Made by a program: the position numbers and the translations under genes. Positions 6,269-20,054 of a stretch of DNA of 24,091 bases are shown one piece after another. The notes beneath the pieces are model-generated. The model made no database searches and had not been told where the DNA came from. It saw nothing but the letters and a program-made list of their open reading frames with translations. This DNA is from a virus, in the IMG/VR virus record IMGVR_UViG_3300047560_000825, positions 1 to 24,091 of that record. One strand, written 5' to 3'. Positions within the stretch are counted from its first letter, which is position 1. Each line of letters begins with the position of its first letter.

Positions 6269-8041
6269 ATGGCATTAGTCCCACAACAAAGAAAAGCTGT
6301 TACCGCTTCAGTTCCAGCACCTATTGGCGGTTGGAACGCTAGAGATTCTTTGGCAGCTATGCAGCCTACTGATGCAGTTCAGATGGTGAATTGGTATCCA
6401 ACGCCATCCGACATTTTATTGCGTAGAGGGTATAGCCAACATTCCACAGGAATTACAGGCACAGTTGAATCTTTAATGAACTATGCTTCTCCAACAGGGC
6501 AAAAATTGTTTTCTGTAGCTAATGGCGTTATATATAACTCTACAGCCACAGGCGCAGCAACAAGCGTATTTACAGGTTTAACTAATAGCAAATTTCAGCA
6601 CGTTAATATTTCAACACCAGGCGGTAGCTTTTTAGTAGCGTGTAACGGTGCTGACCCTACAATGGTTTATGATGGTACACATTGGTTCAAAATTGCCACA
6701 ACAGCTACTGCTCAGACTATTTCTACGATTACTAGAGGTGGCACAGGTAATTTAACCGCTACTCTTACAACTGCTTCTGCTCATGGCTTGATTACAGGCA
6801 ATCGAGTAACAATTAGTGGTGCTGATCCTACGCAATTTAATGGCACTTATGTCATTACGGTTACAGGAACTACAACATTTACCTACACAATGGCATCTGC
6901 ACCTGCTGGAGATGCTACAACAATGGGTAGTTATACCGTTGTTGGAATTACAGGCGTGAACTCAAACACGTTTATTAACGTCAATTTGTTCAAAAACCGC
7001 TTGTGGTTTACCGAAAAAGACACTATGAAAGTGTGGTATTTAGATCCTGAGTCTATTGGCGGTGATGCAAACCCATTAGATTTTGCTTCTATTGCTCGTA
7101 TGGGTGGTTATTTGCAAGCAATGGGTACTTGGACTATTGACGCAGGTGAAGGTGTAGACGATTACGCAGTATTTGTAACTAATATGGGTGAAATTATCGT
7201 TTATAACGGTACAGACCCTAATGATGCTACAAAATGGTTATTAAAAGGCGTATGGCAAGTAGGTCAAACATTTAATAGACGTTGTTTTTTTAAATGGTCA
7301 GGCGATTTATTGCTATTAACGCAAGATGGTTTATTGCCATTGGCTTCTGCCCTACAATCAAGCCGATTAGACCCTAGAGTAGCTCTAACTGATAAGATTT
7401 ATTATGCAGTTTCTCAAGCTGCTGACTTTTATTCCACTAATTTTGGCTGGCAAATCAATTATTTCGCCAAGCAAAATATGCTTATTCTTAACATTCCTGT
7501 AACTGAAGGCTCAGAACAGTATGTTATGCACACCATTACTAAATCATGGGCTAGATTTACCAATATTAATGCAGATTGTTGGGAAATTCACAATGATGAT
7601 ATGTATTTTGGTGGTTCTGGCTATGTAGGTCAATTTTGGAGTTCTGACTCTGATAATGGCAATAACATCAATGCCACAGTTCAACAGGCTTATAACTATT
7701 TTGACACTAGAGGAACGCAAAAACGCTTTACTTTGGTAAGACCTATTATTACCACTATTGGCGGTTTCCCAAGCATTTTATGTGGTGTAAACCTAGATTT
7801 TGAAGAAGGTAACGCTACAGGTACTATTTCGTTTAATCCATCAGGAAATGGTAATGGTGTTTGGGATAGCTCAACTTGGGATAATGCTATTTGGGGTGGT
7901 GCAACAGTTATTAACAAAAACTGGCAAGGCGTGACAGGCATTGGATATTGTGCAAGCTTACAATTAACCGCAGCTTCACAAGGTATCACAGTTAGATGGG
8001 CTTCTACGGACTTTGTAATGGAAACAGGTGGAGTAATTTAA
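6269..8041 (+). CDS. Packaged-DNA stabilisation / tail nozzle protein (P22 gp10- or T7 gp12-like role)
   Basis: This is a 590-residue beta-rich protein. The N-terminal block PIGGWNARDSLAAMQPTDAV then NWYPTPSDILLRRGY is diagnostic of stabilisation/tail-tubular proteins that plug and extend the portal channel in short-tailed phages. Repeated blade-like segments (VYDGTHW, IIVYNGTDP, WYLDPESIGG) suggest a beta-propeller. Residues about 148-223 look like an inserted domain (TASAHGLITGNRVTISGADP then FNGTYVITVTGTTTFTYT), a module found in many unrelated phage structural proteins. It follows the adaptor by three bases. The length is close to other family members with such an insert. The function is assigned from the family; the insert's role is unknown. 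Confidence 0.75.
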   Translation: MALVPQQRKAVTASVPAPIGGWNARDSLAAMQPTDAVQMVNWYPTPSDILLRRGYSQHSTGITGTVESLMNYASPTGQKLFSVANGVIYNSTATGAATSVFTGLTNSKFQHVNISTPGGSFLVACNGADPTMVYDGTHWFKIATTATAQTISTITRGGTGNLTATLTTASAHGLITGNRVTISGADPTQFNGTYVITVTGTTTFTYTMASAPAGDATTMGSYTVVGITGVNSNTFINVNLFKNRLWFTEKDTMKVWYLDPESIGGDANPLDFASIARMGGYLQAMGTWTIDAGEGVDDYAVFVTNMGEIIVYNGTDPNDATKWLLKGVWQVGQTFNRRCFFKWSGDLLLLTQDGLLPLASALQSSRLDPRVALTDKIYYAVSQAADFYSTNFGWQINYFAKQNMLILNIPVTEGSEQYVMHTITKSWARFTNINADCWEIHNDDMYFGGSGYVGQFWSSDSDNGNNINATVQQAYNYFDTRGTQKRFTLVRPIITTIGGFPSILCGVNLDFEEGNATGTISFNPSGNGNGVWDSSTWDNAIWGGATVINKNWQGVTGIGYCASLQLTAASQGITVRWASTDFVMETGGVI

Positions 8042-18929: not shown

Positions 18930-19166
18930 ATGAGGACAAATTTAACAGATGCTCAATTAATTGAGTTAGCAGGGGGAACTGCGGAAGTTAGTAGGTTATG
19001 TGAAGTAAGCATGGCTGCCGTAGCTCAATGGAAACGTAATGGAATACCAAGGGATAAGTTGGTCTATATGGCTGGGCGCATAGAGGTAAACTCTAAAGGC
19101 TTTGTCTGTAGAAAAGACTTATATCCTGATTATTTTGGCGATATATGGCCAGAGTTGCAAAACTAA
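18930..19166 (+). CDS. Cro/YdaS-like transcriptional repressor
   Basis: The 78-residue protein has a helix-turn-helix at about residues 7-48: LIELAGGTAEVSRLCEVSMA then AVAQWKRNGIP and YMAGRIE. This is the typical Cro/YdaS-type signature (GGTxxxxxxxxVSxxxVxxWKRxGIP) of small phage repressors. The C-terminal part (KGFVCRKDLYPDYF and GDIW) is also usual for the group, where the RKDLYPD stretch follows the HTH. There is no ribosome site before ATG 18930, and a promoter fits a leaderless mRNA. The divergent arrangement with operator-like repeats suggests control of the early switch. A CI-type partner with a dimerisation domain is not present in the window. Confidence 0.82.
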   Translation: MRTNLTDAQLIELAGGTAEVSRLCEVSMAAVAQWKRNGIPRDKLVYMAGRIEVNSKGFVCRKDLYPDYFGDIWPELQN

Positions 19167-19184
19167 TTAAAATGTTTTAATCTA

Positions 19185-19256
19185 TGGAGACGGCTAGGGT
19201 CATCCCCGAAGAGTCGCTTAGTCACCGACCTGCCAATCTCCACCTTTTAGTGACTA
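19185..19256 (+). ncRNA. Structured leader RNA with possible pseudoknot before the replication gene
   Basis: TGGAGA (19185-19190) pairs with TCTCCA (19237-19242). Inside, GGC (19192-19194) pairs with GCC (19232-19234) and GGTC (19198-19201) with GACC (19227-19230), forming an extended stem with small bulges. TAGTCAC (19219-19225) in the loop can pair with GTGACTA (19250-19256) downstream, which would make a pseudoknot. A second GACTA (19262-19266) next to the likely ribosome site GGGA (19267-19270) offers an alternative partner, and TCCC (19203-19206) could pair with GGGA itself. The segment is noncoding and more G+C-rich than its surroundings. It does not match a riboswitch I know. Confidence 0.5.
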
Positions 19257-19274
19257 CCTTTGACTAGGGACAAT

Positions 19275-20054
19275 ATGAATTATTACAATTTCCACATTGG
19301 GGACTATGCGTCTCACACTAGAGGTCTAAGTCTCATAGAAGATTTAGCGTATAGAAGAATTTTAGATCTTTATTATTTGTCTGAAAAACCATTAACAGGT
19401 GAATACGATGTTGTGGCTAAAAACATTGGTATGCCTGAGTTTGCAGAGCAAATTGAATACATATTAGTTACTTTTTTTGAGCATACTCCTCATGGTTTTA
19501 TAAATAAAAGAGCAGATGCTGAAATAGAAGTAATGAAAAAAAAGCAAGAAAGTGCAAGACAAAGTGCTAATAAGCGTTGGAAAAACGTCAATAAAATGCC
19601 TTTGCATAGCGAAAGTATTGCCATTGAAATGCCATCGCATAGCGAAAGCAATGCTACCAAGACCAATACCAAGACCAATACCAAATTAAATAATAAAATA
19701 GATTGTCCAGAAAATATTCCTGTAGAAGTATGGAATGATTATTTGTCTATAAGAAAAGCTCAAAAAAAACCTATTACTGATACGGCATTGAAAGGTTTAA
19801 AAAGAGAGGCAGAAAAAGCAAAAATATCTCTTTTTGATGTTTTGACTATTTGTTGTGAACGAGGGTGGGTAGGATTTAAAGCTGAATGGATCAAAGATTC
19901 CGCTAATAAACCACAAGATAAGTCTTGGATGATGTCTAATCAAGGCATAGAACAAAAAGCTCAAGAATTAGGTGTAAATAGCTATGGTGTTGCAAACCAT
20001 CAGCAGTTAAAAGAAAAGATATTGCAAGTAATGGCTAAAAGGAGTATTGAATAA
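19275..20054 (+). CDS. Replication protein with DUF1376 N-terminal domain
   Basis: ATG 19275 is chosen because GGGACAAT lies just upstream; a TTG at 19260 would put the site inside the gene. The 259-residue product begins with NYYNFHIGDYASHTRGLSLI followed by EDLAYRRILDLYYLSEKPL, the DUF1376 (YdaU) signature found in phage replication initiation proteins. Residues about 100-140 are a low-complexity linker with repeats (two HSES units, then KTNTKTNTK). The C-terminal domain (PVEVWNDYLSIRKAQKKPIT to the end) resembles the DnaC/loader-type partner region of such proteins. The linker DNA carries iteron-like repeats, suggesting an internal origin as in lambda O. A stop/start overlap couples it to the next small gene. 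Confidence 0.8.
   Translation: MNYYNFHIGDYASHTRGLSLIEDLAYRRILDLYYLSEKPLTGEYDVVAKNIGMPEFAEQIEYILVTFFEHTPHGFINKRADAEIEVMKKKQESARQSANKRWKNVNKMPLHSESIAIEMPSHSESNATKTNTKTNTKLNNKIDCPENIPVEVWNDYLSIRKAQKKPITDTALKGLKREAEKAKISLFDVLTICCERGWVGFKAEWIKDSANKPQDKSWMMSNQGIEQKAQELGVNSYGVANHQQLKEKILQVMAKRSIE
19596..19705. repeat. Iteron-like repeats and A+T-rich tract inside the replication gene
   Basis: The 20-base unit ATGCC-N3-GCATAGCGAAAG occurs at 19596-19615 and 19629-19648, a 33-base period. It is followed by ACCAAGACCAAT twice in tandem (19656-19667, 19668-19679) plus a partial third copy (19680-19684), then an A+T-rich run to about 19705. Repeats followed by an easily melted tract inside the initiator gene are the architecture of the lambda origin. 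Low-complexity linkers are common in DUF1376 proteins, so part of the repeats may reflect protein composition only. Confidence 0.5.

Follow-up and report, generated by a model that had tools for sequence, protein, structure and literature searches.

A divergent int-alpA RNA in the leader of a phage DUF1376 gene and the predicted pairing of its hairpin loop with two downstream sites

Cis-acting pseudoknots control the initiation of translation in the T4 gene 32 leader and in repZ of IncIalpha/IncB. Like the pseudoknot predicted here, they lie upstream of the start codon of a replication-related gene, but their folds are unrelated to it, and the present leader gives no sign of a bound protein or of a coupled leader peptide. 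Close analogues are the C4 RNAs of phages P1/P7 and the CI RNA of P4 (RF01695), in which an outer stem encloses two hairpins and the loop of the second hairpin (P3) can base-pair with a site where a downstream gene begins. In P1 c4, the layout consists of the outer stem, P2 and the P3 antisense loop b', with the target b2 located before the icd start, and the AUGG...CCACC end of P1 is cleaved by RNase P (PMC5320573). The P4 CI RNA, a member of the C4 family, controls the replication genes of P4 (PMC4825925); in the P4 leader of our collection (L189, 1616-1693, minus strand), an isrK-family RNA is also found upstream of the CI RNA. A third described system is int-alpA (RF02996), a widespread family that Rfam classifies as an sRNA with no assigned function; its hosts range from enterobacteria to planctomycetes, in which it is carried by phages and prophages. 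In the literature searched, which did not extend to the presumed original description of the family, a single paper named int-alpA, with a table entry that lists it as a predicted sRNA, and no published account of a loop-RBS pairing mechanism was found.

The window analyzed here, i.e., the whole stretch of 24,091 nt (24 kb) from an IMG/VR virus record, carries plus-strand late genes up to 14.8 kb, then a minus-strand operon with an ERF-type recombinase gene and, from 18930, a plus-strand early operon in which a YdaS/Cro-like gene is followed by the leader, a DUF1376 gene, a DUF7696 gene and others. No similar DNA was found among annotated phages. The gene immediately 5' of the leader (18930-19166, plus strand) encodes a small Cro/YdaS-like DNA-binding protein, whose Pfam matches to YdaS_toxin (5.8e-7) and P22_Cro (7.5e-4) are both under the curated cut-offs. 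The presumed target (19275-20054, plus strand) encodes a DUF1376 protein (PF07120, 1.7e-18); this Pfam family has no assigned function, and the place of its genes in phage genomes suggests that the protein is probably a phage replication (start) protein. The intervening gap (19167-19274) contains no conserved open reading frame. Translation could also start from a TTG at 19260, but relatives begin at a conserved M-N/H-YY ATG that corresponds to 19275 in the window. The leader is non-coding, as described in the initial annotation. A few nucleotides 5' of the element lies a −10-like box, TTTAAT, preceded by TG (19176-19181, plus strand). Across the family, such hexamers occur 0-5 nt before the outer stem in 7-15% of elements per offset, compared to about 3% further upstream. 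The box of the window predicts a transcript start at or near the outer stem. The leader element of about 60 nt probably starts from its own promoter; the DUF1376 gene may accordingly be transcribed from a promoter of its own as well as by read-through out of the Cro/YdaS-like gene. T-rich sequence follows the element across the family; no terminator-like site was found in the window.

The conserved core of the element (all plus strand) is a three-way junction that consists of the stem P1, the hairpin P2 (GGG/CCC), a GAARAG junction and the hairpin P3 (GUCG/CGAC). The 5' strand of P1 comprises the outer UGGAGA (19185-19190), all four modelled pairs of which change on both sides among relatives, and the inner GGC (19192-19194), which is followed by a conserved UA and whose GGC/GCC pairing is invariant; the 3' strands, GCC (19232-19234) and UCUCCA (19237-19242; 19232-19242 together), pair with them in the alignment of relatives. 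P2, GGG-UCAUC-CCC (19197-19207), is paired in 97.3% of alignment cells and covaries. The junction reads GAAGA (19208-19212), for which the alignments give a family consensus of GAAAA and the Rfam consensus is CGAAAAG. P3, GUCG-(CUUAGUCAC)-CGAC (19213-19229), exposes the pairing loop (19217-19225), and its pairs are replaced on both sides among relatives (UCG/CGA, GAA/UUC, GCG/CGC, GCUA/UAGC and GCCAU/AUGGU). The multi-part stem proposed in the initial annotation was therefore right in part. All the words named there (TGGAGA/TCTCCA, GGC/GCC, GGTC/GACC, TAGTCAC at 19219-19225, GTGACTA and GACTA at 19262-19266) are present where they were placed, and the first two helices are kept in relatives. 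The third, GGTC (19198-19201) with GACC (19227-19230), is only 50% paired and shows no covariation in relatives, in which P2 and P3 are formed instead.

Thermodynamic folding of the leader was unremarkable when compared to that of shuffled sequences (z of 0.13 for the whole leader and −1.25 for the core), so the case for this structure rests on comparison. We collected about 185 loci around DUF1376 genes by four protein scans of viral contigs and read 88 distinct leaders, many of which share the core GGCUA-(hairpin)-GAARAG-(hairpin)-CUGCC and an outer stem. When 100 sources were searched with a covariance model (R1) built from ten of these leaders, including that of the window, 28 matches were obtained; the window scored 69.9 bits as a training member, and unseen loci were found down to an E-value of 0.26. 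In the resulting alignment (25 distinct sequences), 90.7% of the cells were paired and 99 were changed on both sides, compared to 32.7 ± 4.8 after shuffling (0 of 500 shuffles), and pairing dropped sharply once the partners were slid. An independent set of int-alpA RNAs gave 93.3% paired cells, which was again reached by none of 500 shuffles. Compensatory changes, for which a test on homologous DUF1376 leaders had been proposed, are thus present in the outer P1, P2 and P3, as well as in one of the loop helices described below.

A scan with 4227 Rfam models revealed no significant match of the window to a riboswitch or any other Rfam family, and weak matches to U7 and SNORD62 were dismissed as chance. 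The curated RF02996 model (gathering score, 35.8 bits) did not match the window even at an E-value of 10. The leader of a near twin (L249) scored 23.7 bits against this model (E 3.7e-5), which is under the cut-off, and sister DUF1376 leaders in the records of L039 and L136 exceeded it, as did the L125 record. A pattern drawn from the relatives of the window retrieved 101 stretches from bacterial genomes of many phyla and at least 120 from the viral scan; when 17 of the pattern loci were scanned with Rfam, 14 were identified as int-alpA, with scores of 37.6-52.7 bits. To examine this relationship independently of the window's own sequence, we trained a second model (R2) solely on twelve int-alpA RNAs that Rfam had certified and that came from other contexts. 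Positions 19180-19246 were the sole significant match of R2 in the window, with filters on or off (39.6 bits, E 4.9e-13), a score to be read in light of the fact that the twelve training RNAs had been fetched by the pattern derived from the relatives of the window. R2 also gave 42 matches in 54 DUF1376 and sister loci. The R2 match follows both the consensus letters and the fold of int-alpA (P1, CUAG, P2, CGAARAG, P3 and CCUG), and P1, CUAG, P2, CGAAAAG, P3, CCUG, the closing strand P1' and a T-rich tail are shared with RF02996. In contrast to RF02996, the window element has an internal loop in P1, precedes a DUF1376 gene and escapes the Rfam model. The integrase/alpA neighborhood implied by the family name is absent from the window, where the neighbors are the YdaS/Cro-like gene and DUF1376. 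Given these similarities, we place the element in int-alpA as a divergent member; the earlier statement that it matches no known riboswitch class holds for riboswitches and for the Rfam threshold, but not with regard to this sRNA family.

Membership in the C4/CI family was rejected by the same approach. The C4 model RF01695 matched neither the window nor 10 related records at E-values up to 10, while the P1 c4 control scored 68.8 bits. C4 is therefore kept here as an analogue only. The window element and its family share with it the outer stem and two hairpins, the phage setting and, as predicted from complementarity, a loop antisense to a downstream site in the region of the ribosome-binding site (RBS). 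C4, however, lacks the GAAAA junction, acts on a different gene and uses two different antisense segments (a' and b'), whereas the int-alpA-type element has one loop and two like sites.

The two sites of the window lie between the element and the DUF1376 start codon. Site 1, GUGACUA (19250-19256, plus strand), is a 7-nt complement to the P3 loop with a predicted duplex energy of about −8 kcal/mol and an H-type pseudoknot geometry. Site 2, UGACUA (19261-19266, plus strand), is a second complement to the same loop and abuts a Shine-Dalgarno-like AGGG (19266-19269); a hairpin around it is limited to about CCU/AGG in the window. Only 0.1% of dinucleotide shuffles contain both a 7-nt and a separate 6-nt loop complement within the 32 nt before the ATG. 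The frequency of TAGTGACTA and CTTAGTCAC elsewhere in the window is no greater than chance, and therefore no second target is apparent in this 24-kb fragment. The pairing is missing from the structure line of the RF02996 model.

That one loop might choose between two downstream partners, the second of which lies at the ribosome site, had been suggested from the letters of this leader, and the arrangement is kept in scores of relatives with differing loops. For 177 elements with 134 distinct loops, the longest pairing run with the element's own downstream sequence was 5.12, compared to 3.11 ± 0.14 with the downstream sequences of other elements, and the second run was 3.84, compared to 1.59 ± 0.14. 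When the downstream sequences of 126 distinct loops were permuted, the longest run decreased from 5.33 to 2.80 and the second from 4.01 to 1.17, values that 0 of 10000 permutations equaled. The parallel complement of these 126 loops, which has the wrong direction, also gave longer runs with own than with permuted sequences (3.63 vs. 2.60), which means that some of the raw excess is due to composition. Dinucleotide shuffles of each element's own downstream sequence served as the control for composition. With 112 distinct loops, the longest run was 5.44, compared to 3.61 in the shuffles, and the second was 3.88, compared to 1.52; two sites of at least 5 nt before the start codon were found for 53% of the loops and in 4.5% of the shuffles. 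Under this strict count, about half of the elements have fewer than two such sites; the set was defined by a regular expression, and some loops may be misplaced. An earlier and smaller test on phage leaders agrees with the loop-downstream pairing. Further support comes from an alignment of 28 sequences made blind to the loops, in which the helix between the loop and site 2 was 82.7% paired and contained 16 double changes, compared to 3.5 ± 1.6 after shuffling (0 of 500). Site 1 was misaligned by MAFFT, and the support for its helix comes from the permutations, the shuffles and the geometry. As judged by these comparisons of sequences, the predicted two-partner pairing of the loop is real and general across the family.

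The two sites differ in geometry. Among the 62 cases that have both of them, site 1 started 12.9 ± 1.8 nt after CTGCC, while its distance to the start codon was more variable (sd 5.3); site 2 ended at a median of 7 nt before the start codon. The site 1 helix, usually of 5-7 bp, directly abutted the 3' strand of P3 in 61 of 71 cases, compared to 32% for chance pairings, and 1-3 loop bases were free on its other side in 55 of the 71, as in an H-type pseudoknot. In the window, no unpaired loop base separates this helix from the 3' strand of P3. The site 2 helix is usually of 5 bp and offset by one, and a Shine-Dalgarno-like word lies in or beside site 2 in 41 of the 71 cases. Compared to its shuffles, the segment that runs from site 1 to the start codon has a more stable predicted fold (mean z −1.6), frequently a hairpin whose loop holds site 2.

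The best reading of these results is that pairing between the P3 loop and the RBS would control translation, whether in cis, through a C4-like antisense RNA or in both ways. We consider it somewhat more probable than the alternatives taken together that the int-alpA-type leader is a two-state translational control element whose P3 loop pairs with either site 1 or the RBS. The three-way junction would serve as a scaffold that displays the P3 loop, and the loop would pair in cis with either site 1, forming the pseudoknot, or site 2. The fixed geometry between the element and site 1 favors such a cis pseudoknot, and the placement of site 2 suggests that the loop is also able to mask the ribosome site. 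Pairing with site 2 would cover the Shine-Dalgarno region and would thus be expected to repress translation of DUF1376, while pairing with site 1 would leave the ribosome site free. Candidate triggers for the exchange include the order of events during transcription, ribosome traffic, a protein and, in trans, another copy of the RNA.

The chief rival, which we regard as possible but clearly less probable, is that the element is released as a free RNA of about 60-75 nt and acts in trans like C4 of P1/P7 or CI of P4. Its P3 loop would then pair with the ribosome site on further copies of the mRNA from which it came and repress them, giving control of copy number or superinfection. The likeness to the layout of P1 c4, the role of P4 CI in replication control and the sRNA type given to int-alpA in Rfam are all consistent with this proposal, and the −10-like boxes before P1 and the T-rich sequence after the element fit a short RNA. 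Against it are the lack of a match to the C4 model, the missing terminator-like site in the window and the fixed spacing of site 1 and its abutting helices, which favor contact in cis. The P1 of the closest relatives ends in AUGG...CCACC as in P1 C4, a likeness noted by eye that would also fit a free RNA; this end is confined to the subgroup of the window rather than family-wide, and an RNase P end is thus not claimed. The complementarity fits either mode, and cis control and a free antisense RNA may both hold. It is unlikely that the scaffold instead serves to bind a protein or a small molecule, as an undescribed protein site or riboswitch would, with the loop-site pairing only as its output helix: in the three-way junction, the unpaired CUA, GAAAAG and CCUG are conserved across phyla more strongly than an antisense scaffold seems to need, but the downstream genes are very diverse and share no pathway to be sensed, and no riboswitch family was matched. 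That the element has no function as RNA, being either a conserved DNA feature such as a repeat or a site of recombination or a product of chance, would agree with the unexceptional folding energy but is very improbable and already contradicted by the compensatory changes in the stems and loop-site helices and by the fixed placement before start codons.

The gene next to the element varies. In many phage loci it encodes DUF1376, and elsewhere GIY-YIG-like endonucleases (assigned by eye; Pfam gave NUMOD3 and AP2), HNH-like endonucleases, phage integrases, Rha regulators, C5 methylases or unknown proteins; a related stretch found in the chromosomes of E. coli coincides in part with an annotated DUF551 gene. 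The architecture is the same before these unrelated genes, which speaks for the two-partner reading, and the element behaves as a module that is not tied to the gene that follows it. Six contigs (L323, L333, L342, L343, L344 and L388) each carry two or three int-alpA-like matches at most a few kb apart, and loops and sites differ between the copies read (e.g., two of L343), a situation that could be used to test orthogonality.

Other RNAs were also encountered during this survey. A Clostridiales MAG contig with an int-alpA RNA (L349) also carries two type II hammerhead ribozymes of equal score about 1.3 kb apart (6394-6462 and 7711-7779). A different RNA with the outer stem TTGGYRG/CYRCCAA is found before DUF1376 genes, at 2860-3000 of L001 and in other leaders (L002, L011, L013, L048, L051, L094, L108, L114, L157, L159, L161 and L163). 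Over about 18 nt, its hairpin loop is complementary to a segment that lies further downstream and is followed by a T run, so that the two joined would resemble a terminator. This RNA had no Rfam match in L001, L002, L011 and L013 and no R2 match in the leaders tested.

The RNA family to which we assign the element is already known, while no published account of the loop-pairing mechanism was found. At about even confidence, we propose that the int-alpA family is a modular phage translational switch, placed across many phyla in front of genes for replication, endonucleases, integrases and antirepressor-like proteins, in which a programmable loop would be contested by a pseudoknot site and the RBS, with loop/site pairs freely re-coded on a fixed scaffold. 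The two-site pairing of the loop offers int-alpA a concrete, testable mechanism, in which the sequence by itself predicts the targets, and suggests a small part for the control of translation that could be re-coded. It would add a third layout of RNA control of phage early genes, beside the C4/CI RNAs and the protein-bound pseudoknots.
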